Shown here: one piece after another, positions 6,375-57,722 of the stretch
Layout: each line of letters opens with the position of its first letter
Numbering within the stretch: the first letter of the stretch is position 1
Assembly: GCA_016788565.1 (NCBI GenBank)
Contig: JAEUSP010000135.1
Span: 1 to 64,000, forward strand
Source: Chlorobiota bacterium
GTDB taxonomy: Bacteria > Bacteroidota > Ignavibacteria > OLB7
DNA: 64,000 nucleotides
Reading direction: 5' to 3'
The notes under the pieces: generated by a model
What the model was told of the DNA's origin: nothing
The model's input: the letters and a program-made list of their open reading frames with translations, nothing else
The model's database searches: none
Translations under genes and position numbers: made by a program

Positions 6375-6421
6375 CCACTAGCCACTGACTACTGACCACT
6401 GACCACTGACTACTGACTACT
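6375..6421. repeat. Short tandem CCACTGACTA/CCACTGACCA repeat at the pgsA 3' end
   Basis: About 45 bp of near-perfect 10-bp repeats (variants of CACTGACTAC and CACTGACCAC) between ftsY and pgsA. On the minus strand the repeat follows a run of nine G and supplies the TAG stop codon of pgsA (6417-6419). The same decamer recurs near 54160-54245 and 57620-57722. The rest of 6174-6374 shows no gene or clear signal. Confidence 0.85.
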
Positions 6422-6974
6422 CCCCCCCCCACTGCCTCACCACCCGAACAGCATACAGCGTAAGCGAGATAGCCAGCAACAGCAGCGCGGTTCCCGCCAT
6501 GATGTCAATCAGCGTTGTGGATGCCCCGGCAACAATCGCCAGCAGGGTCCCCGACAGCACCAGCACCGCAATTTTTCCCGGGTAGTTGGAAGGAAGCACC
6601 ACCCCGGTGCGCCGCTCGAACAGTATCCCGCCAACAAGGATCAGCAGGTCGCGGCCAAGCACAACCAGCACAAACCAGAGGGGGAGCATCCCCTGCATCA
6701 GCATGATGACCACCACAACCCCCACATACACTTTGTCGGCCAGCGGGTCAAGGATTTTGCCGAGGTCGGAAATTTCATTCCGTTTGCGCGCAAGCCAGCC
6801 ATCAAGCACATCGGTGAGTGCCGAGAGGATGAAGAGCGCGATGGTGGCAAGCCGCATTCCTGAAGCCAATGTGAACCACGTGGGAATCACCAGCAGCATC
6901 CGAAGCGCGCTTAATCCGTTCGAGAGTGTCCAGCGCAAGTTCAGCCCTGGCGGCGATTCGGCGTTTGTGTTCAT
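6417..6974 (-). CDS. pgsA: CDP-diacylglycerol--glycerol-3-phosphate 3-phosphatidyltransferase (PgsA-like)
   Basis: A 185-aa integral membrane CDP-alcohol phosphatidyltransferase. It likely makes phosphatidylglycerol phosphate, the committed step to anionic phospholipids. The family signature is perfect: D58-G59-x2-A62-R63-x8-G72-x3-D76-x3-D80, providing the metal and CDP site. About five membrane segments are visible. The ATG at 6974 is chosen because it begins the conserved domain and follows a TAAGTTTG box by 6 nt; the open frame extends far upstream, but that part is the antisense of pta. The C-terminus reads WGGE and its last codon and stop come from a G-tract plus decamer repeat. A related alcohol such as serine or inositol as acceptor cannot be excluded. 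Confidence 0.88.
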
Positions 6975-6980
6975 TGCGGG

Positions 6981-6988
6981 CAAACTTA
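6981..6988 (-). promoter_or_regulatory. Putative -7 promoter element (TAAGTTTG) of pgsA
   Basis: On the minus strand the sequence TAAGTTTG is followed by six bases and then the pgsA ATG. It fits the Bacteroidota sigma-factor -7 consensus TANNTTTG. The distance implies a leaderless or near-leaderless mRNA. No clear -33 TTTG is seen. A mirror-image copy serves the divergent pta gene about 90 bp away. Confidence 0.5.
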
Positions 6989-7076
6989 CAAAACTGCTTG
7001 CGCGGCGGCCACCCGATAGCCCCCGCCGTTTCCATTTTGTACCGACTGCCACGCCCTGCTTCAGGGGGCGGCTGTG

Positions 7077-7084
7077 TACTTTTG
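7077..7084 (+). promoter_or_regulatory. Putative -7 promoter element (TACTTTTG) of pta
   Basis: TACTTTTG lies five bases before the pta ATG at 7090, matching TANNTTTG. With the equivalent box for pgsA it makes a compact divergent promoter region of about 115 bp. Transcription would begin at or next to the start codon. A -33 element at normal spacing is not evident, so this rests on the -7 box and its repeated placement. Confidence 0.5.
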
Positions 7085-7089
7085 CGGGC

Positions 7090-8082
7090 ATGAGTTCATA
7101 CCCGGAATTACTGCTCCGTTTCCGCAACCAAGCGGCCCAGCAGCCAGCCCGCATCGCCCTTCCCGATGCCCACGATGAGCGGACCATCCGCGCCGCACGA
7201 ATCCTTGCCGACCAGCAGATTGCCCAGTCGGTGCTTGTTGGTGCGGAGTCAAACATCAGCCAACAAGCCGCCAGCTTGGGGATTTCGCTGGATGGAGTTG
7301 CGATTGTTGAGCCGGAACATCACCCACGTTTTTTTGAATTTGCCGAAGCCTTCCACCAAGCGCGCCAGCACAAAGGGGTAACGCCAGAAATTGCGCAAAC
7401 AATGCTGCGGCAACCGCTGTACGCCGCCGCAATGTTGGTGCGGTCCGGCGATTGCGCCGGGTGCGTTGCTGGCTCGCTTAGCACCACCGGCGACGTTCTG
7501 CGCGCAGCAATCCAGGTGATTGGGTTGCAGCCCGGAATCTCGGTGGTCTCCTCCTTCTTCCTGATTGTTTTCCCCGACCGCACCTACGCCTTTGCCGATG
7601 GCGCGGTGATGCCAAACCCCACCAGCCACCAGCTTGCCGACATTGCGCTGGCCACCGCCGCCAACTACCACACATTGATCGGGATTGAGCCGCGTGTTGC
7701 GTTCCTAAGTTTCAGCACGAAGGGGAGTGCCGAACATCCCGATGTGGAGAAGATGCAGCAAGCATTCCAGCTTGCCAGCCAGAAGGCTCCGGCAGGGCTG
7801 GTGATGGATGGCGAGCTTCAGCTTGACGCGGCCATTGTTCCAGGCGTTGCCGCGCGAAAAGCCCCCAACTCACCCGTTGCCGGCCAAGCCAACGTCCTGA
7901 TTTTCCCCGATCTTGATGCGGGAAATATCGCCTACAAAATGGCGCAGCGGATGGCCGGCGCGCTGGCAATCGGCCCAATCGTGCAAGGGCTGTCCAAGCC
8001 AATGTTCGATTTGTCGAGGGGGTGTTCGGTGGATGATATTGTTGATGTTGCGGCAATCTGCGCTATCACGGCGCGGGGGTAG
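7090..8082 (+). CDS. pta: Phosphate acetyltransferase-type acyltransferase
   Basis: A 330-aa protein of the phosphate acetyl/butyryltransferase family, which interconverts acetyl-CoA and acetyl phosphate. It corresponds to the short single-domain Pta. Recognisable family segments are the N-terminal [14 protein letters not shown], the central [20 protein letters not shown], and the [15 protein letters not shown] and [13 protein letters not shown] stretches near the C-terminus. The start at 7090 follows a TACTTTTG box and matches the usual N-terminus; the frame stays open upstream through pgsA antisense sequence. No acetate kinase gene lies next to it. Phosphate butyryltransferase activity is a possible alternative. 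Confidence 0.9.
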
Positions 8083-23024: not shown

Positions 23025-24119
23025 ATGCTTACAACACCACAACTGATTGCCCTAAACTCACTTCCTGGGATCACCTCGGCGGCGGTGCGGAGGTTGGTGG
23101 AGACGGGGGAAGATTTCCAGACGATTGCGAACGCCCCGCCGGAGGACTTGGCCGCCGAAGGGCTACGAAGTGCGGCGATTGCGGGAATGGCGAACATGGA
23201 GTTGCTGCTTCGGCAAGCCGAATCGCAGGTTCAGCGGGCGGCGCAGTTTGGCGGCGGGATTATCCATTTCTGGAGCGACGACTACCCCGCACGGCTCCGC
23301 CAGATTTACGCGCCACCGATCATCCTCTACCTGCATGGCACTTTGCTGCCGGAAGATGACCGCTCGATTGCCATTGTTGGAACGCGCGCGGCCACGATGT
23401 ACGGGCGATTGAGCGCCGAAAAATATGCCGAAGAATTTTGCGCAAGCGGCGTGACGGTGGTTAGCGGGCTTGCGCGCGGAATAGACCAGTACGCCCACGC
23501 CGCCGCACTCCGCACCAGCGGCAGAACAATCGCCGTGATTGCCAGTGGGTTGGATGAAATTTCGCCAAGCCTATCGGCACAGATGGCGCGGAAAATTGCC
23601 GAGCGTGGGGTGGTGATTAGCGAGTACCCGTTTGGCGTGAAAGCAATCCCCGCGTACTTCCCGCAGCGGAACAGAATTATCAGCGGAATGACGGCAGCGA
23701 CGGTGGTGGTGGAGAGCGACCAGAAAGGGGGAGCGATGATTACCGCCAGCTTTGCGTTGGATCAAAGCCGCGAGGTGTTCGCGCTTCCCGGGCCGATTTC
23801 CTCGCCGAAAAGCCGCGGCACCAACGGCCTTATCCGCACCGACCGTGCGCGGCTGACCCAATCGCCGGTTGATGTTCTGGACGCGCTGGGCTACCACATC
23901 CCAACCGCTGCGGCAAACAACTTCAGCAGCGAACCGCCCGCCGATCTCACCCTGTTTGAGCGTGCCATTTTCGACTCCCTTGACGGCGAACCCCGCCACG
24001 TTGACACCCTCTGCGAATCCACCGGCCTCACCAGCAGCGAAGCCCTTGTGGCATTGCTTGCGTTGGAGTTCAAAGGGCTGGCAAGGCAGATGGCGGGGAA
24101 GATGTTTTTGCGGCGGTGA
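23025..24119 (+). CDS. dprA: DNA processing protein DprA (Smf)
   Basis: A 364-aa DprA/Smf protein, which loads RecA on incoming single-stranded DNA in natural transformation. An N-terminal helix-hairpin-helix-like region (LNSLPGITSAAVRRL) precedes the Rossmann-like core with IAIVGTRAATMYGR, SGLARGIDQYAH, PQRNRIISGM and VVVESDQKGGAM. A winged-helix-like C-terminal domain ends in FKGLARQMAGKMFLRR. ATG at 23025 is preferred over 22986 because the bases between resemble intergenic CATTCGACATTC repeat rather than coding DNA. The stop codon is followed directly by six G and a GAATGTC repeat. It lies 40 bp after the helicase cassette, on the same strand, but is probably an independent housekeeping gene. 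Confidence 0.93.
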   Translation: MLTTPQLIALNSLPGITSAAVRRLVETGEDFQTIANAPPEDLAAEGLRSAAIAGMANMELLLRQAESQVQRAAQFGGGIIHFWSDDYPARLRQIYAPPIILYLHGTLLPEDDRSIAIVGTRAATMYGRLSAEKYAEEFCASGVTVVSGLARGIDQYAHAAALRTSGRTIAVIASGLDEISPSLSAQMARKIAERGVVISEYPFGVKAIPAYFPQRNRIISGMTAATVVVESDQKGGAMITASFALDQSREVFALPGPISSPKSRGTNGLIRTDRARLTQSPVDVLDALGYHIPTAAANNFSSEPPADLTLFERAIFDSLDGEPRHVDTLCESTGLTSSEALVALLALEFKGLARQMAGKMFLRR

Positions 24120-24260
24120 GGGGGGAATGTCGAATGTCGGATGTCGAATGCCGGATTTTGGAGTTGCCCGCGAAGCTCACCAGAGCGTAGCAGGGGGGCG
24201 CGAGTTCGGCGGTGGCAGCTTCAAAATCTTTCACCCTTCCCATCTCACTCTTCACTCTTC
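24120..24260. repeat. Composite intergenic repeat after dprA
   Basis: Directly after the dprA stop codon, six G lead into GAATGTCGAATGTCGG, then a 35-bp block containing GCGAAGCTCACCAGAGCG and AGCAGGGGGGCG, then CACTCTTCACTCTTC. The middle block reappears at about 54090-54125 with the other two motifs again beside it, in different order. No gene is apparent up to the cyclase start. Confidence 0.8.
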
Positions 24261-24323: not shown

Positions 24324-26447
24324 ATGGCCAATCCCGACACAGCCCTCGCCGAACTCCGCGCCGCCGTAGCCGCCGCCACCACCCCCACCGACCGCGCCAA
24401 CGCACTGAACCAGCTTGCCGAAGAGTTAGGGAAGCAAAGCCACTACCCCGAAACCCTTGCCGCAGCCGAGGAAGCCTACGTTCTTGCCCAGCAAGCCGAA
24501 GCCCCGGCAGCAGAAGCTACGGCGTTGTGGTTGCAGGGGGTGGTGCATTTGTGGAAAGGGGAGTATGGCGAGGCGTTGCGGCTATTGGAGGAATCACAGA
24601 CGCTCTACGAAAAGATTGGGGAGCGTTCCGGGGTGGCTCGTGTTACCGGGTACATCGGGATTGTGTACGAAAGCCTTGGGGAGTATGGGAAGTCGTTGGA
24701 GTATTTCACCCGTGCGATTGCTCTGTATGAAGAGCTTGGTGAGCGTTCCGGGGTGGCTCGTGTTACCGCGAGCATCGGGATTGTGTACAAAAACCTTGGG
24801 GAGCATGGGAAGGCGTTGGAGCATTACACCCGTGCGCTTGCCTTGCTGGAAGAGCTTGGGAATCGTTCCGGGGTGGCGATTGTTACCGGGAACATCGGGA
24901 CTGTGTACGAAAGCCTTGGGGAGTATGGGAAGTCGTTGGAGCATTTCACCCGTGCGATGGCTTTGCATGAAGAGCTTGGCGATCGTTCCGGTGTTGCCAG
25001 TGTTACCGTGAACATCGGGATTGTGTACGAACAACTTGGGAAGTATGGGAAGTCGTTGGAGCATTACACCCGTGCGCTTGCTTTGCATGAAGAGCTTGGC
25101 GAGCGTTCCGGTGTGGCGATTGTTACCGTGAACATCGGGATTGTGTACGGAAGCCTTTCGGAGCACGGGAAGTCGTTGGAGTATTTCACCCGTGCGATGG
25201 CTTTGTCTGAAGAGCTTGGCGATCGTTCCGGTGTGGCGAATGCTACCGGGAACATCGGGACTGTGTACGAAAGCCTTGGGGAGTATGTAAAGTCGTTGGA
25301 GTATTTCACCCGTGCGCTTGAGCTGTATGAAGAGCTTGGCCAGCGTTCCGGTGTGGCGATTGTTACCGGGAACATCGGGAATGTGTACAAGAATCTTGGG
25401 GAGCATGGGAAGTCGTTGGAGTATTACACCCGTGCGATTGCCTTGCATGAAGAGCTTGGGGAACGTTCTAGGGTGGCTCTTGTTACCGGGAACATCGGTT
25501 CACTCTACGCTCAGAAAGAGTTCGCCGAGTACAACCCCACCAAAGCCGAAGAACTCCTCGGGCAGGCAATCACCCTCAACCAAGAATTAGGAACGAAGAA
25601 AAATCTTTACGAAAGCCACGAAGCCTTAGCCAACCTCTATTCCCAAGAAAACCGCTGGGAAGAAGCTCTCCAGCAGTACAAAAAATACCACGAGGCCTAC
25701 GGCGAGGTTCACACCGAGGAGGCACTGAAGAAGGCAGCACAAGTTGAGCAACAACGTCAGGTTGCCGAGATGGAGAAGCGCATTGCCATCGAACGCGCCC
25801 GCGCCAAAGCCACCGAGGAGCTTCTCCACAAAACCTTGCCCCCAACCATCGCCAACCGGATCATCGCCGGCGAGCAACAGATTGCCGACCGCTTCGATTC
25901 CGCCAGCGTGTTGTTCGCTGATGTCGTCGGCTTCACCCCGATGACCGCGCAGATGCCCGCCAGCGCGGTGTTGGAGTTCATGAACTTCGTCTTCGCTCAC
26001 TTCGACGAGATAGCCGCCAAGCATGGCTGCGAGCGAATCAAGACAATCGGCGACGGCTACATGGCCGTCTGCGGCGCGCCAGTGGAGTGCGAGGATCACG
26101 CCGAGCGAATCGCGAGGATGGCGATGGAGATGCTGGTGGATGTGAAGCTGCCAGCAAGCATCACCGAGCACCTGCCGCCCAACACAGAGTTTGAGATACG
26201 GATTGGACTTCACACTGGAGGCATCACCGGCGGAGTGATTGGCGTTGGCAAACTGGCCTACGACATTTACGGCGACACCGTAAACACGGCCAGCCGGATG
26301 GAGAGCCACGGCGAAGCGGGGAAGGTTCATGTGAGTGACGAGTTTGCAAGTGCCGTTGGAAGCAGCTTCAGTTTTACGGAGCGTGGGGAGATGGAGGTAA
26401 AAGGGAAGGGAGTGCTGCGGACGTATTTTTTGGAGGTGGTGGAGTAG
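24324..26447 (+). CDS. TPR-repeat adenylate cyclase (class III)
   Basis: A 707-aa soluble protein joining tandem TPR repeats to a class III cyclase domain. Start ATG 24324 gives MANPDTALAEL. Residues about 96-392 hold more than seven 40-residue TPR units, nearly identical in DNA as well as protein. A coiled linker (about 470-510) precedes the catalytic domain. Metal aspartates are D533 (LFADVVGF) and D577 (IGDGY). The adenine-selecting pair K573 and D647 is present, and transition-state N654 and R658 occur in VNTASRM. All catalytic residues are therefore intact and ATP should be the substrate. No signal peptide or receptor domain exists, so TPR-protein binding probably controls cAMP production. 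It is monocistronic. Confidence 0.93.
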   Translation: MANPDTALAELRAAVAAATTPTDRANALNQLAEELGKQSHYPETLAAAEEAYVLAQQAEAPAAEATALWLQGVVHLWKGEYGEALRLLEESQTLYEKIGERSGVARVTGYIGIVYESLGEYGKSLEYFTRAIALYEELGERSGVARVTASIGIVYKNLGEHGKALEHYTRALALLEELGNRSGVAIVTGNIGTVYESLGEYGKSLEHFTRAMALHEELGDRSGVASVTVNIGIVYEQLGKYGKSLEHYTRALALHEELGERSGVAIVTVNIGIVYGSLSEHGKSLEYFTRAMALSEELGDRSGVANATGNIGTVYESLGEYVKSLEYFTRALELYEELGQRSGVAIVTGNIGNVYKNLGEHGKSLEYYTRAIALHEELGERSRVALVTGNIGSLYAQKEFAEYNPTKAEELLGQAITLNQELGTKKNLYESHEALANLYSQENRWEEALQQYKKYHEAYGEVHTEEALKKAAQVEQQRQVAEMEKRIAIERARAKATEELLHKTLPPTIANRIIAGEQQIADRFDSASVLFADVVGFTPMTAQMPASAVLEFMNFVFAHFDEIAAKHGCERIKTIGDGYMAVCGAPVECEDHAERIARMAMEMLVDVKLPASITEHLPPNTEFEIRIGLHTGGITGGVIGVGKLAYDIYGDTVNTASRMESHGEAGKVHVSDEFASAVGSSFSFTERGEMEVKGKGVLRTYFLEVVE
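24609..25500 (+). repeat. Homogenised 120-bp tandem coding repeats (TPR units)
   Basis: Seven full 120-bp units plus a partial one, in phase with the reading frame, encode the TPR domains. Each unit contains invariant stretches such as TCGTTGGAGTATTTCACCCG and AACATCGGGA at fixed position. Period is exactly 120 bp with no indels. Differences are scattered substitutions, indicating recent expansion or gene conversion. Confidence 0.95.
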
Positions 26448-36613: not shown

Positions 36614-37642
36614 ATGAACACCGACCCACCCGACAACCAGCTTCCGCTTTTTCCCGACTTGCCAGCCGATGTGAAAGCATCGGCTGCCAAACCCAGCATT
36701 CTTCCTGATGCTGGCGACGCTCCGCGCCCAGAATTAGATGGAACCTGGGAGCGCAAACATCGGAGCCCCATCACCGCGGCGGTGGTGGGGATGTTGCTGA
36801 TCGGCTTGATCTACATCGTTGGCCAAGTGGTGCTGATTGTCCCGGCAGTGATTGCCCAGTTGATAGATGCCCCCAACTCCACAGCCGAGTTGGAGACTGC
36901 CGAAATTTTCATGTTGATCCGCACCCCGCTGCTTGTTGCCCTGACGATTTCGCAATATCTGTTCATGGCACTTCCGGCGTGGTTGCTGGCGCGCCGCTGG
37001 CACGTTGGCAAGCTGGGGAGCGTGGCCGGCTACGTCCGCCTGCGCGCTGCCGATTGGCGTGTGGTGGTGCTAACTCCACTACTCACGATTGCCTTTATTC
37101 CCCCCGCCAACTACCTCTCGCAACTCTTCATGGAATGGCTTGGGATGCCGGCCGACTCCATGAAAGAATTGGAGGCGTTGTTCACAGCAAGCTCCTTCCC
37201 AGAGTTGCTGCTGCTCAGTTTTGTGATTGCCATCACCCCGGCCATTTGCGAAGAAATTTTCTTCCGTGGATACGTGCAGCGGACGTTCCAGCGGGCCATT
37301 GGTGCGCGAAGCATTTGGGTTACTGGGGTGCTGTTCGGGCTGTTCCATTTCCAACCGGTTAGCCTGCCAACCCTTGCGCTGATGGGGATTCTGCTGGGCT
37401 ATCTGTACCACCGCACCCAAAGCCTGCTCCCCAGCATGATTGCCCATTTCACCAACAACTTCATGGTGCTGTTGCTGCTGTACCTTGCCCAAGCAAATCC
37501 TGAGTTGATGGGAGCATCGGAGGAGTTCTCCCTCCCGGTGGTGCTTATCAGCGGGGTGGTTTGTGTTCTGCTGTTGGGGGTGGTGCATCGGCTGACGGGG
37601 GGAATGTCGAATGCCGAATGTCGAGTGCCGAATGAAGAGTGA
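36614..37642 (+). CDS. CPBP family intramembrane metalloprotease
   Basis: A 342-aa membrane protein of the CPBP/Abi (Rce1-like) family. Motif 1 is CEEIFFRGYVQR (near residues 212-223), motif 2 is GLFHFQ and motif 3 is HFTNNF. Together they give the glutamates and histidines of the glutamic intramembrane protease site. Seven or so membrane segments flank them. The N-terminus is a hydrophilic extension of about 55 residues. The last 14 or so residues (MSNAECRVPNEE) are translated from a GAATGTC repeat, and the true ancestral end was probably the LTGG region. Natural substrates are unknown; such proteins sometimes function in bacteriocin immunity. Confidence 0.88.
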   Translation: MNTDPPDNQLPLFPDLPADVKASAAKPSILPDAGDAPRPELDGTWERKHRSPITAAVVGMLLIGLIYIVGQVVLIVPAVIAQLIDAPNSTAELETAEIFMLIRTPLLVALTISQYLFMALPAWLLARRWHVGKLGSVAGYVRLRAADWRVVVLTPLLTIAFIPPANYLSQLFMEWLGMPADSMKELEALFTASSFPELLLLSFVIAITPAICEEIFFRGYVQRTFQRAIGARSIWVTGVLFGLFHFQPVSLPTLALMGILLGYLYHRTQSLLPSMIAHFTNNFMVLLLLYLAQANPELMGASEEFSLPVVLISGVVCVLLLGVVHRLTGGMSNAECRVPNEE

Positions 37643-37847
37643 GAAGGTAGGAATGCCGAATGTCGAATGTCGAATGTCGAATGCCGAATGCCGAATGTCG
37701 AATGCCGAATGTCGAATGCCGAATGTCGAGTGGCGAATCAAGAGTGAGAAGGTAGGAATGTCGAATGCCGAATGTCGAGTGGCGAATCAAGAGTGAGGAG
37801 GTAGGAATGCCGAATGCCGAATGCCGAATGGGGAATGAAGAACGACT
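37602..37847. repeat. GAATGYC heptamer tandem repeats with spacer blocks
   Basis: From within the CPBP gene end, a GAATGTC/GAATGCC heptamer (and GAGTGCC variants) is repeated in tandem. It is interrupted by a near-identical block (GAAGAGTGAGAAGGTAGG and close variants) at three places. The repeat begins after GACGGGGGG, resembling the dprA and xerD repeat junctions. It ends next to a palindromic repeat. Confidence 0.9.
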
Positions 37848-46598: not shown

Positions 46599-46656
46599 TG
46601 TTCGCAGGCATTCGCTGATCCCGCCGCTAACTTCCATTCGACATTCGACATCCCCC

Positions 46657-47586
46657 TCACCCCCGCGGGTGGAACGTCCGGTGGACTTCGCGCAGATATT
46701 CGCGATCAACGTGGGTGTAAATCTGGGTGGTGACGATGTGCTGGTGGCCTAACATCTCCTGCACCGCACGCAAATCGGCTCCCCCTTCCAGCAGGTGTGT
46801 TGCAAACGAATGCCGAAACGTGTGGGGGTGAACATCCGCTTCCACCTTTGCCAGCGCGGCATATTTTTTTGCCATCACCCAGATTGCATTTCGGCTAAGT
46901 GGACCCCCGCGTGAGTTCAGAAACAGCACGTCGTTCGTGCTGCGTCCGGGTTGGATTAGTTGGGTGCGGGCAACGGCGCGGTAGCGGGTAATCCATTCTT
47001 GTGCGGGGCGGCCAATCGGGGCCAGCCGCTCCTTGTTCCCCTTGCCAATAATCCGCACCAGCGAATGCTGGAACAGCAGCTGCGAAATCGTCAGGGTGCG
47101 AAGCTCGCTTACCCGCATTCCGGTGGCGTACAGCGTCTCCAGAATTGCACGGTCGCGAACCCCGTAGGGGATGCCCGATTCGGTTACGTCGGGGGCGTTC
47201 AGGATGGCCTCCACTTGTGGCAGCGAAAGCACATCGGGAAGGCTGCGGCGTTTTTTCGGTTGGGCGATCATCTCCGAGGCATCGCTTTTTACCTCCTCCT
47301 CGGTCATCGCAAATTTATGCAGCCCCCGAATCGCCGAGATTGCACGCGCCACCGATGTTGGCGCAAGCCCAGTTCCCACAAGCTGTGCAACGTGGTTTCG
47401 GATATGCGCGCTTTGTGCTTCGGCAAGTTTGTTCACGCCAAGCCCGGTAAGCTGTTGCAGGTATCGCCGCACGTCGCGCTTGTAGGCCGCCAACGTGTGT
47501 TCCGATGACCCTTTCTCCAGCAACAGAAACTCCTCGTAGCGTTCCAGCAAAAGCTCTAACGGGCGGCTGATTGCTTGTTGGTTCAT
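46657..47586 (-). CDS. xerD: Tyrosine recombinase XerC/XerD
   Basis: A 309-aa site-specific recombinase of the Xer type, resolving chromosome dimers at dif during division. Catalytic residues are all present: R158, K182, H255, R258, H281 and Y290 (nucleophile). The N-terminal SAM-like domain (ELLLERYEEFLLLEKG) is normal. ATG 47586 is selected just downstream of the nth stop codon; an open frame through nth is not plausible. The stop codon is followed directly by five G and an ATGTCGAATG repeat. It could be either of XerC/XerD; XerD-like sequence is slightly favoured. The nearby OXA gene is not evidence for an integron. Confidence 0.95.
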   Translation of the reverse strand: MNQQAISRPLELLLERYEEFLLLEKGSSEHTLAAYKRDVRRYLQQLTGLGVNKLAEAQSAHIRNHVAQLVGTGLAPTSVARAISAIRGLHKFAMTEEEVKSDASEMIAQPKKRRSLPDVLSLPQVEAILNAPDVTESGIPYGVRDRAILETLYATGMRVSELRTLTISQLLFQHSLVRIIGKGNKERLAPIGRPAQEWITRYRAVARTQLIQPGRSTNDVLFLNSRGGPLSRNAIWVMAKKYAALAKVEADVHPHTFRHSFATHLLEGGADLRAVQEMLGHQHIVTTQIYTHVDREYLREVHRTFHPRG

Positions 47587-53960: not shown

Positions 53961-54253
53961 GGGAATGTTGAAGAGTGAAGAGTGAAGAGTGAAGAGTGAA
54001 GAGTGAAGAGTGAAGAGTGAAAAGTGAAAGAGAAAGAGAAAGAGCCGGTAGACTTCCTCTGCATCTTTTTCCCCCCAGAATTGGGGGGACGCGAAGCTCG
54101 CCAGAGCGAAGCAGGGGGGCGAGAAATGTCGAATGCCAAATGTCGAATTGGTTCTTGCCACTGACCACTGACCAGCGATGAGAACGGTCGAATGTCGAAT
54201 GCCAAATGGATTCTTGCCACTGACCACTGACCACTGACCAGCAATGAGCAATG
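53961..54253. repeat. Composite tandem-repeat region
   Basis: It contains about five copies of the decamer GAAGAGTGAA (53967-54025). Then comes a block shared with 24160-24200 (GCGAAGCTCGCCAGAGCG and AGCAGGGGGGCG). It is followed by two copies of a composite of GTCGAATGCCAAATG and TTCTTGCCACTGACCACTGACC (54121-54250). Three repeat families are here joined in one 290-bp interval between two minus-strand genes. No gene was found. Confidence 0.92.
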
Positions 54254-54294
54254 TCGAATCGAACTTGGCAGCACCGTGCAGTGGACGCGACGCG

Positions 54295-55069: not shown

Positions 55070-57571
55070 GTGACTTCTTCGCTTCCCATCCAGCCGATTC
55101 TTCCCGAACTCTGTGCTGCGTTGCACCGCCACAACAATCTGGTGTTGCAAGCGCCCCCGGGTGCGGGAAAAACCACCTGCGTGCCGCTGGCACTGTTGCG
55201 GCAAGAATGGCTGCAAGGTAAAAACATCATCATGCTGGAGCCGCGCCGCATTGCTGCTCGCACCGCCGCGCGCCGCATGGCCGCAATGCTTGGCCAAAGC
55301 GTTGGGCACACCGTTGGCTACCGCACCCGAACCGACACCGCCGTTGGCCCAACAACGCGGGTTCAGGTTGTCACCGAAGGGGTGCTGGCGCGGATGTTGC
55401 AATCGGACCCAGCACTGGAGGCGTTCGGCGTTGTGATCTTCGATGAATTTCACGAGCGGAGCGTCCATGCCGATTTGGGGCTTGCGCTGGCGTTGCAATC
55501 GCAAAGCCTTCTGCGCCCCGATCTCCGCATCTTGGTGATGTCGGCAACACTGGATGGCCAAGCGGTGGCGCGGCTGCTTGGCGATGCCCCAATCATCACC
55601 AGCGAAGGACGCAGTTTTGCGGTGGAGACAATCCACCTGGAAAAACGTGCCGAACAACGGCTGGAGCAGACGGTGGCCGCAACCGTTGTTCGGGCCTTGC
55701 GCCATGCCGAGGGGGACCTGCTTGTGTTCCTTCCTGGGGTTGCCGAAATCCGGCGGGTGGAAAGTGTGCTGAGCCAGAGTAACCTTCCCGGCAACGTTTT
55801 GATTGCTCCGCTGCATGGCAATCTTCCGCAGGAGTTGCAGGATCGCGCAATCCAACCGGCCCCGGCTGGCAAACGGAAAGTTGTGCTCTCCACCTCCATT
55901 GCCGAAACCAGCCTGACGATTGAAGGAGTGCGGGGGGTGATTGATAGTGGGCTGATGCGTGTCCCGCGATTTTCCCCCCGCAACGGGATGTCGCGGCTGG
56001 AAACAATCGCCGTAACCCGCGCCGCCGCCGACCAACGGCGCGGGCGCGCCGGGCGCGTTGCCGAAGGCCGCTGCTACCGGCTGTGGACCCTTGCCGATGA
56101 TGCTGCGCTGATCCCCCATTCCCCTCCCGAAATCCTTGATGCCGACCTTCTTCCGTTGGCGTTGGAGCTTGCCGAGTGGGGCGTTCACAATCCGGCGGAA
56201 CTTCGTTGGATAGATGCTCCGCCGGCGGCAGCATTTGCCCAAGCGCGCCAACTGCTGGCCGATCTTGGCGCGCTGCACGGGGGGAACATCACCCCGCACG
56301 GCAAGCAGATGGCGCGGCTGCCGCTGCACCCCCGTTTGGCCCACATGGTGCTGAAAGGGATGGAGCTTGCCGAGGGCGCGACGGCCTGCTTGTTGGCGGT
56401 GTTGCTGTCGGAGCGTGACGTGCTGCGGGGCGATGATGCCACGGCTCACGATGCCGACCTTCGGTTGCGGGTGGAAGCTCTGCAGGGGGATTTCGGGGCT
56501 GGGCGAATTGGCCGCAACGTGCAATCCACCATCCGCACGGCAACGCAACGCCTGCGCCGCCAGCTTGGGCTGGCCGATGAATCGGTGAACGTGGATGCTT
56601 GTGGCCTGTTGCTCAGTTTTGCCTTCCCCGACCGAATCGGAATGCGGCGCGCCGGAACCGAAGGGCGTTTCCTGCTTCGCAACGGCAACGGCGCAAGGCT
56701 GGACCCACACCAGACGCTGGCACGCGCCGATTTTCTTGTTGCCACCCAGCTGGATGGTGAGCGGGCCGAAAGCCGAATCTTCCTTGCCGCACCGGTCACG
56801 ATGGAGGAAATCGAGGAGCACCACGCGGAGCAAATTGAAGAGGAAGAGGTAGTGGAATGGGAGGCCAGCACTGAATCCGTTCGGGCCGTAGCAAGAAGGC
56901 GGTTGGGGGGGATCACGCTTCGCCAGCAACCGATCCCGAACCCATCGCCCCAGCAGATTGCGCTGGCGTTGGCCGATGCCGTTGCCGCCCAGGAACTGCG
57001 CCCGCTTCCGTGGTCCGGCGGGGCGCGACGGTTGCAGCAGCGATTGCTGTTTTTGCGCCAACTGGACCCCTCCATTCCTGATGTTTCCGATGCTGCGTTG
57101 CGGCTGTCGGTTCGCGGGTGGCTGGTTCCGCATCTGCAGGGATTGCGGCGGCAGAGTGAGTTGGGGAAACTGAATTTGGAGGCGATACTGAGCAGCGTTA
57201 TTCCGTGGGAACTTCAGCGGCGGCTGGATTCCGAGGCCCCAACCCACATCACCGTCCCAAGCGGTTCGCGCATCCCAATTGATTACTCCAACCCGGACGA
57301 CCCGGTGTTGGCGGTGCGATTGCAGGAGATGTTCGGTTGCGCCGAAACGCCGCGCATTGCCGGGGGAAGGATACCACTCACGTTGCATCTACTCTCCCCG
57401 GCGGGACGGCCAGTGCAGGTCACGCGGGACCTTGCGGGATTTTGGCGGGGCAGCTACTTCGATGTCCGCCGCGACCTGCGTGGCCGCTACCCCAAACATC
57501 ACTGGCCCGAAGACCCGATGCAAGCCCAGCCAACCAACAGAGCAAAACGAAGAGTGAAGAGTGAAGAGTGA
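55070..57571 (+). CDS. hrpB: ATP-dependent RNA helicase HrpB
   Basis: An 833-aa DEAH-type helicase. GTG 55070 is chosen since SLPIQPILPEL is the conserved N-terminus. A GATTTGCCAGC sequence just before it is a variant of the -7 box seen at other genes. Walker A PPGAGKTT is near 30-37, the DEFHER motif near 124-129, SATLDG follows, and the motif VI RRGRAGRVAEG is intact. A HA2/OB region and an HrpB-specific C-terminal domain reach RYPKHHWPEDP. The last residues RVKSEE are derived from a GAAGAGTGAA repeat that supplies the TGA stop. Its RNA substrate in bacteria is poorly known. Confidence 0.95.
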   Translation: MTSSLPIQPILPELCAALHRHNNLVLQAPPGAGKTTCVPLALLRQEWLQGKNIIMLEPRRIAARTAARRMAAMLGQSVGHTVGYRTRTDTAVGPTTRVQVVTEGVLARMLQSDPALEAFGVVIFDEFHERSVHADLGLALALQSQSLLRPDLRILVMSATLDGQAVARLLGDAPIITSEGRSFAVETIHLEKRAEQRLEQTVAATVVRALRHAEGDLLVFLPGVAEIRRVESVLSQSNLPGNVLIAPLHGNLPQELQDRAIQPAPAGKRKVVLSTSIAETSLTIEGVRGVIDSGLMRVPRFSPRNGMSRLETIAVTRAAADQRRGRAGRVAEGRCYRLWTLADDAALIPHSPPEILDADLLPLALELAEWGVHNPAELRWIDAPPAAAFAQARQLLADLGALHGGNITPHGKQMARLPLHPRLAHMVLKGMELAEGATACLLAVLLSERDVLRGDDATAHDADLRLRVEALQGDFGAGRIGRNVQSTIRTATQRLRRQLGLADESVNVDACGLLLSFAFPDRIGMRRAGTEGRFLLRNGNGARLDPHQTLARADFLVATQLDGERAESRIFLAAPVTMEEIEEHHAEQIEEEEVVEWEASTESVRAVARRRLGGITLRQQPIPNPSPQQIALALADAVAAQELRPLPWSGGARRLQQRLLFLRQLDPSIPDVSDAALRLSVRGWLVPHLQGLRRQSELGKLNLEAILSSVIPWELQRRLDSEAPTHITVPSGSRIPIDYSNPDDPVLAVRLQEMFGCAETPRIAGGRIPLTLHLLSPAGRPVQVTRDLAGFWRGSYFDVRRDLRGRYPKHHWPEDPMQAQPTNRAKRRVKSEE

Positions 57572-57722
57572 AGAGTGAAGAGTGAAGAGTGAAAGAACCG
57601 GTAGCCTTCGTCTGCATTTGAGTTCTTGCCACTGACCACTGACCACTGACCACTGACCACTGACCACTAACCACTGACTACTGACCACTGACCACTGACC
57701 ACTAACCACTGACCACTGACCA
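57550..57722. repeat. Decamer repeats after hrpB
   Basis: Starting in the last codons of hrpB, GAAGAGTGAA units (57550-57590) lead to a spacer with GAGTTCTTGCCACTGACC. Tandem CCACTGACCA/CCACTAACCA decamers then run to 57722. The order resembles the 53961-54253 interval. The final bases lead into a promoter box at 57756. Confidence 0.92.

Follow-up and report, generated by a model that had tools for sequence, protein, structure and literature searches.

The question raised by this locus is why four genes, pgsA, dprA, xerD and a CPBP gene, each end beside a tract of G residues and a short tandem repeat. The window is a 64,000-nucleotide stretch taken from contig C70 of a 4.58 Mb host genome (G000; 137 contigs, rated 100% complete). 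A preliminary description of it held that the four junctions are hard to explain by chance, and suggested insertion targeting, a reverse-transcription or priming mechanism, or an association with transcription ends. The features of the four junctions and of two further regions of the window are:

6384–6421, minus strand: TCAGTRG heptamer array at the pgsA 3′ end, holding the stop codon TAG (6417–6419)
6422–6430, minus strand: run of nine G (C on the plus strand) at the outer junction of the pgsA array, within the reading frame
24120–24125, plus strand: run of six G immediately 3′ of the dprA stop codon TGA (24117–24119)
24125–24156, plus strand: GAATGTC/GAATGCC array after dprA, G-rich strand in the sense direction
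37597–37602, plus strand: run of six G in the coding 3′ end of the CPBP (Rce1-like) gene, ahead of the array
37601–37841, plus strand: composite GAATGYC array of the CPBP gene with a 49-bp higher-order period, supplying the stop codon (37640–37642)
46635–46651, minus strand: two-unit GAATGTC repeat at the xerD 3′ end
46652–46656, minus strand: run of five G between the xerD stop codon TGA (46657–46659) and the repeat
53969–54259, no strand assigned: intergenic GAAGAGT arm and repeated GAATGCC...TTCTTGC...CACTGAC cassettes, the opposed arms being of different families
57549–57722, no strand assigned: inward-facing pair of a GAAGAGT arm (57549–57593), which reaches the end of the gene at 55121–57571, and a CCACTGA arm (57629–57722)

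The four junctions and the heptamer arrays

Direct reading of the sequence confirms the arrangement at pgsA, where the stop lies within a TCAGTAG array, at dprA, where the six G are followed by AATGTCGAATG, and at xerD, where the five G are followed by ATGTCGAATG, with only about two repeat units. At the CPBP gene, whose identity Pfam confirms, the six G are followed by GAATGTC and the frame passes through the repeat as described, but the TGA cited there (37594–37596, in TGACGGGGGG) is out of frame (CTG ACG GGG GGA ATG), and the true stop is the one within the repeat. Because the CPBP stop and the pgsA TAG both lie inside their arrays, the G-tract in these two genes precedes the stop and is in coding sequence; the order of stop, G-tract and repeat is found only at dprA and xerD. 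The Pfam matches identify a CDP-alcohol phosphatidyltransferase (pgsA-like; PF01066), DprA (PF02481/PF17782) and a tyrosine recombinase (xerD-like; PF00589/PF02899). The pgsA reading frame (6417–7256, minus strand) overlaps a plus-strand frame at 6586–8082, and its Pfam domain starts only at residue 109, so the true start is probably further in. The window also has a tandem 120-bp repeat at 24609–25498 (7.4 copies, 85% match) in the reading frame 24324–26447, which looks like a repeat-domain protein.

Comparisons with chance used 0.70 Mb (703 kb) of the host genome, a hold-out of 0.23 Mb (228 kb), and two relatives. The two host samples come to ~0.93 of 4.58 Mb, about one fifth; the relatives are G001, of the same genus (779 kb sampled), and G103, a heptamer-bearing genome of another family (400 kb). 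Genes were called with a purpose-built codon-usage caller and not taken from a curated annotation; a bias of the caller at start codons was ruled out, as few arrays lie within called genes. The host and relative genomes are fragmented and certain contigs start or finish within arrays, and therefore long arrays are under-sampled. One example is contig C15, whose opening (L033, G000:C15:1-132) is the interior of a GAAGAGT array, so that assembly breaks at arrays and long ones are under-counted. G001 is the sole same-genus genome in the search for relatives, with a DprA 89% identical to that of the host, and the next named DprA relatives are Chlorobiota and Bacteroidota MAGs. We note that the congener record JADZEY010000044.1 is titled Armatimonadetes, yet its DprA relatives are Chlorobiota and Bacteroidota MAGs, and the title may be wrong.

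The arrays are built from units of exactly 7 nt and are overwhelmingly intergenic, as in the class of intergenic heptanucleotide repeats (LSSR/STRR). Exact tandem pairs number 945 at period 7, 14 at period 8 and none at period 10, with one to ten arrays at each of periods 5, 6, 8 and 9, and array density is 0.996 per kb between genes and 0.017 per kb within them, a 57-fold difference. The commonest units are GAAGAGT, CACTGAC, GAATGTC, CAACTGA, TAATGAC and GAATGCC, and the families include TCAGTNG, GAATGYC, GAAGAGT, TCATTNG and CGGGGAT, among others. The sequence GAATGYCGAATG occurs 488 times in the host, 65 times in G001 and zero to two times in three members of the family, and a search of 296 genomes of the phylum for a 20-nt TCAGT pattern found it in 22. 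G103 has very long TCAGTAG/TCGGTAG arrays (L166, 14419–14630, 212 bp; L168, 5725–6077, 353 bp). Dispersed words that are not heptamers also occur, with CGCTCATGCTGAGC in 37 and CGTCGAAGTATGAG in 35 of 357 sampled intergenic regions of G000, and near relatives of CGCTCATGCTGAGC are present in G001 too. Downstream of dprA in G001 (L072) there are two copies of a dispersed hairpin-like sequence, GGTAGCCGAGCAACGCTCGGCRGTCCC, in a single intergenic region, which represents another repeat family of the genus.

Position, G-runs and orientation at gene edges

Thirty-eight wholly intergenic arrays start 0–10 nt after a stop codon, where random placement within those regions would give 13.6; none of 2000 permutations matched this pile-up. 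A further 22 arrays overlap a gene 3′ end, so the repeat often supplies the stop codon. There is a milder pile-up at 5′ ends, with 24 wholly intergenic arrays ending at most 10 nt before a start codon (11.1 expected). G-runs of at least five are present at the outer junction near stops in 12 of 58 arrays, compared with 1.8 expected from array-free ends at the same offsets (p = 2e-7). A second count of 3′-end outer junctions gives 12 of 60 (1.4 expected) for runs of at least five, 21 of 60 (4.5 expected) for at least four, and 30 of 60 (10.4 expected) for at least three. Only short runs are enriched at the 5′-end outer junction (at least three in 10 of 33, 4.1 expected; at least four in 2 of 33, 0.8 expected).

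These junction-aligned tests rule out chance G-runs at the junctions. G-runs are also not a general feature of stop codons in the lineage, their density in the first 12 nt being 2.6 per kb at array-free ends and 9.5 per kb at ends with arrays (G000). A coarser test, of G-runs between −8 and +20 of the stop, gave 8 of 65 ends with an array within 20 nt and 41 of 633 ends with none, a difference short of significance (p = 0.12); it misses upstream runs (e.g. pgsA), mixes both array orientations, and is superseded by the junction-aligned tests. Tabulated over ~0.93 Mb of the host and two relatives, the repeat starts are non-random with respect to both gene 3′ ends and G-tracts, and neither the location of arrays at gene ends nor the G-run junctions are due to chance. 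The preliminary picture of a G-tract followed by a repeat at gene 3′ ends holds as an enrichment, but long G-tracts mark a minority of 3′-end arrays, about a fifth, and arrays abut 5′ ends as well.

Orientation was scored by array family, independently of base skew. Among arrays no more than 15 nt from a stop, the G-rich strand is sense in 44 and antisense in 2; at 16–40 nt the counts are 19 and 6, and at 41–100 nt they are 27 and 26. Upstream of starts the sense and antisense counts are 0 and 18 within 15 nt, 3 and 13 at 16–40 nt, and 18 and 25 at 41–100 nt. Beyond ~40 nt from gene ends orientation is thus mixed. By a separate, skew-based score all gene-abutting arrays fit this polarity (57/57 at 3′ ends, 32/32 at 5′ ends); the hold-out alone contributes 2/2 and 3/3, too small to stand by itself, and in G103 6/6 of the 3′-end arrays fit. 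The 3′-end pattern is therefore one half of a wider polarity, in which the G-rich strand points outward, 5′ to 3′, from the gene on either side. The 3′ data are compatible with an association with transcription ends. Gene 5′ ends, however, share the outward-G polarity and have a weaker pile-up of their own, so the pattern is not exclusive to 3′ ends.

The two sides differ in their background composition. Array-free 5′ leaders already have C over G on the sense strand (outward skew 0.23–0.32 in the first 30 nt), whereas array-free 3′ ends are neutral at 0–15 nt (0.015–0.021), so that only on the 5′ side can the polarity be put down to leader composition. The 5′-side polarity may be a leader effect, and the 3′ side needs an explanation of its own. 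These observations bear on a pure filtering model, in which arrays of either orientation would form throughout the genome and be retained only if they do no harm. The near-absence of arrays from coding sequence and the mixed, neutral-looking orientation in the middle of intergenic regions are as this model predicts, but it also predicts enrichment in mid-intergenic positions, whereas it is the gene edges that are enriched, and in one orientation, and the array-free 3′ ends offer no strand preference on which a filter could act. We consider it very unlikely.

Where adjacent arrays share an intergenic region they face inward (24:3 and 13:0), and some regions are little but two opposed arms lying flush with both genes. 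Arm families pair freely in such regions, and motifs such as TCAGTTGCAAAGA and CCGGCTTTGTCTTCATTTCACTCTTC recur at the centre between the arms. A duplicated two-arm cassette is seen at G000:C35:10113-10531 (L045), an intergenic region with two near-copies of a GAAGAGT arm and a CCGATCC arm. One explanation is that existing modules of G-arm, centre and C-arm overwrite intergenic regions by recombination or gene conversion. From either end of such a cassette the G-rich strand would read inward, so any orientation of insertion would yield the observed polarity, and the G-run would be the outer end of the cassette. The inward pairs, the recurrent centres, the complete filling of some intergenic regions and the presence of runs of at least three G at both kinds of outer end are consistent with this. 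However, there are 66 single-arm regions and 15 with two arms, among array-bearing regions the two arms occur together no more often than expected by chance, and the free pairing of arm families likewise argues against fixed modules. So does the similar polarity published for unrelated heptamers of other phyla, of which those of Nostoc form few pairs (PMC4692102). Wholesale copying of cassettes thus seems unlikely.

Turnover and comparison with other heptamer repeats

Among 130 orthologous gene ends in G000 and G001, an array is present in at least one genome at 26 and in both at 3. Sharing is no more than expected by chance (p = 0.2), with gain or loss at 23 of the 26, and the arrays turn over fast. 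One example is dprA, where the array is in G000 only and the G001 orthologue is array-free. Families also differ at the same place, with TCAGTAG in G000 and GAAGGAT in G001 at the pgsA 3′ end, and GAATGTC in G000 and GAATGAC/GAATGCG in G001 at xerD. The C-terminal tail of the CPBP protein is HRLTRGNGEQDQSVSVLPSS in G001 and the repeat-encoded HRLTGGMSNAECRVPNEE in the host. The G-run is found without an array at CPBP in G001 and at C18:13500 and C29:54088 in G000, and comes together with the array at dprA and C70:78992. The G-tract is therefore present in some array-free orthologues and absent from others, and insertion targeting is no more than a candidate explanation. As regards transposon-like elements (MITE/REP), the inward-facing arms are of different families, and no target-site duplication or other insertion footprint can be seen, the intergenic sequences of the two genomes having diverged too far.

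Mycobacterial interspersed repetitive units sit at stop codons between genes, as the host arrays do, and are longer than heptamers, unlike the host arrays. Closer counterparts are the GGGAATC repeats of Xanthomonas and, in Nostoc PCC 7120, those of GGGGA(T/C)T (Rehm et al. 2015, PMC4692102). Most of them lie either 0–50 bp after a stop, where the G-rich strand is the coding one, or 0–50 bp before a start, where it is the non-coding one; every repeat that overlaps a stop codon is on the coding strand, and convergent pairs are found in Xanthomonas (PMC4692102). The host arrays are likewise G-rich on the coding strand near stops and on the non-coding strand near starts, and the polarity is thus already known; the host pattern is a broader form of a known, unexplained one. 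The Xanthomonas and Nostoc units carry G-tracts and form G-quadruplexes in vitro, and their polarity was framed through these structures (PMC4692102). In contrast, the host GAATGYC, GAAGAGT, TCAGTA/T and TCATT units lack GGG, which only the CGGGGA type has. Since units without GG (GAATGTC, GAAGAGT) follow the same polarity, quadruplexes cannot be its general cause. Further differences are that several families coexist in the host, and that 3 of 26 orthologous 3′ ends share an array, whereas 83% of Xanthomonas sites are conserved from Xcc to Xac (PMC4692102).

A second related system comprises direct repeats of TAACTGA, which occur in Beggiatoaceae, Cyanobacteria and some Bacteroidetes. Most form short sets located at start codons, and a role as translational regulators was proposed for them (MacGregor 2015, PMC4679880). 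The reverse complement, TCAGTTA, has the core (TCAGT) of the main host family, which consists of TCAGT and two variable bases, exact TAACTGA/TCAGTTA being one variant among many. TAACTGA in forward orientation just upstream of starts corresponds to the host 5′ polarity, and one set in F. litoralis that directly follows a stop is reversed, as the rule predicts; the system differs from the host arrays in that no G-tract is reported (PMC4679880). Units of 7 nt also predominate among the long simple sequence repeats (LSSRs) of Mrazek et al. (2007), for which polymerase slippage was proposed, and the account of them in PMC4679880 does not include the gene-edge polarity or G-run rule. Relative to PMC4692102 and PMC4679880, what is new here are the G-quadruplex-free families, the family differences at orthologous sites, the low conservation of sites between congeners and the separate G-run at the 3′ junction.

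The comparison also bears on selection for function, according to which sense-G arrays would end or stabilise transcripts and C-rich arrays before starts would aid translation, with only these persisting. Xanthomonas transcripts start or stop in G4-capable heptamers more often than in control repeats (PMC4692102), and the translational role proposed for TAACTGA just upstream of starts points the same way. The Xanthomonas effect, however, is independent of which strand is transcribed (PMC4692102), array RNAs in our data fold no better than shuffled sequences (z −1.6 to +2.1), and an array is kept at 3 of 26 orthologous sites, less conservation than would be expected if it served a function. Selection for hairpins or terminators is ruled out by the folding result, and we doubt that selection for 3′-end function in general accounts for the arrays.

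Origin of the arrays and its implications

The account we favour, although tentatively, is that the arrays are born by slippage and limited by coding constraint, with their orientation set at each gene edge, on the 3′ side by a step that hypothetically involves R-loops. Strand slippage by 7 nt would create and resize arrays wherever genes tolerate them, which would give fast turnover and change of family, and their pile-up at stop codons would mark the first position at which coding constraint is lifted. Upstream of starts, leaders would have to be G-poor, and an array would persist only if it is C-rich in the mRNA. RNA:DNA hybrids (R-loops) are expected to form more readily where the non-template strand is G-rich and begins with a cluster of G. 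Downstream of stops, where the transcript becomes free of ribosomes, such a strand would favour both R-loops and slippage on the strand itself, so that sense-G arrays would arise and expand there, and the G-run at the 3′ junction would be the cluster that starts the hybrid. The period-7 excess, the intergenic density, the decay of polarity, the inward arms, the neutral array-free 3′ ends, the runs of at least four G at 3′ rather than 5′ outer junctions and the turnover all argue for this account. Against it, polarity decays within ~40 nt at both gene ends and 5′ arms have short G-runs, which suggests one symmetric cause. Recurrent centre motifs (e.g. TCAGTTGCAAAGA) also count against slippage alone, since they show that modules are copied between loci, and copying of ready-made two-arm modules contributes.

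A symmetric cause would be end extension, in which intergenic breaks would be resected to the gene edges, and the 3′ ends extended with a G-run and G-rich heptamers, as at telomeres, and then joined. A single rule would yield outward-G polarity and a boundary pile-up at both gene ends, and would account for the different arm families, the initial G-runs and the replaced CPBP tail. However, a search of the host genome for a reverse transcriptase (RVT_1), as expected for retro- or telomerase-like addition, gave no match while control genomes were positive, and no Ku gene was detected in it. Moreover, long G-runs are at 3′ ends only and the centre modules are conserved. End extension is accordingly improbable, and Ku-dependent end joining is ruled out. 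The earlier suggestion of reverse transcription or priming has likewise lost ground and is unlikely, with RVT_1 undetected in a genome rated 100% complete.

More broadly, a general strand-polar process might write or expand 7-nt repeats outward from gene edges, along the G-rich strand 5′ to 3′ and often from a G-run, independently of heptamer sequence and of G-quadruplexes, in at least three bacterial phyla; we regard a process of such generality as rather improbable. Many bacterial genomes are strewn with heptamer repeats, which are commonly interpreted as G-quadruplex elements or translational regulators. The fact that unrelated, G-quadruplex-free units follow the rule, with rapid turnover at one and the same gene end, is a pointer to a common process of origin that is tied to the gene edge. 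Heptamer arrays can rewrite protein C-termini and stop codons, and the orientation rule is a simple one that can be tested in any heptamer-rich genome.
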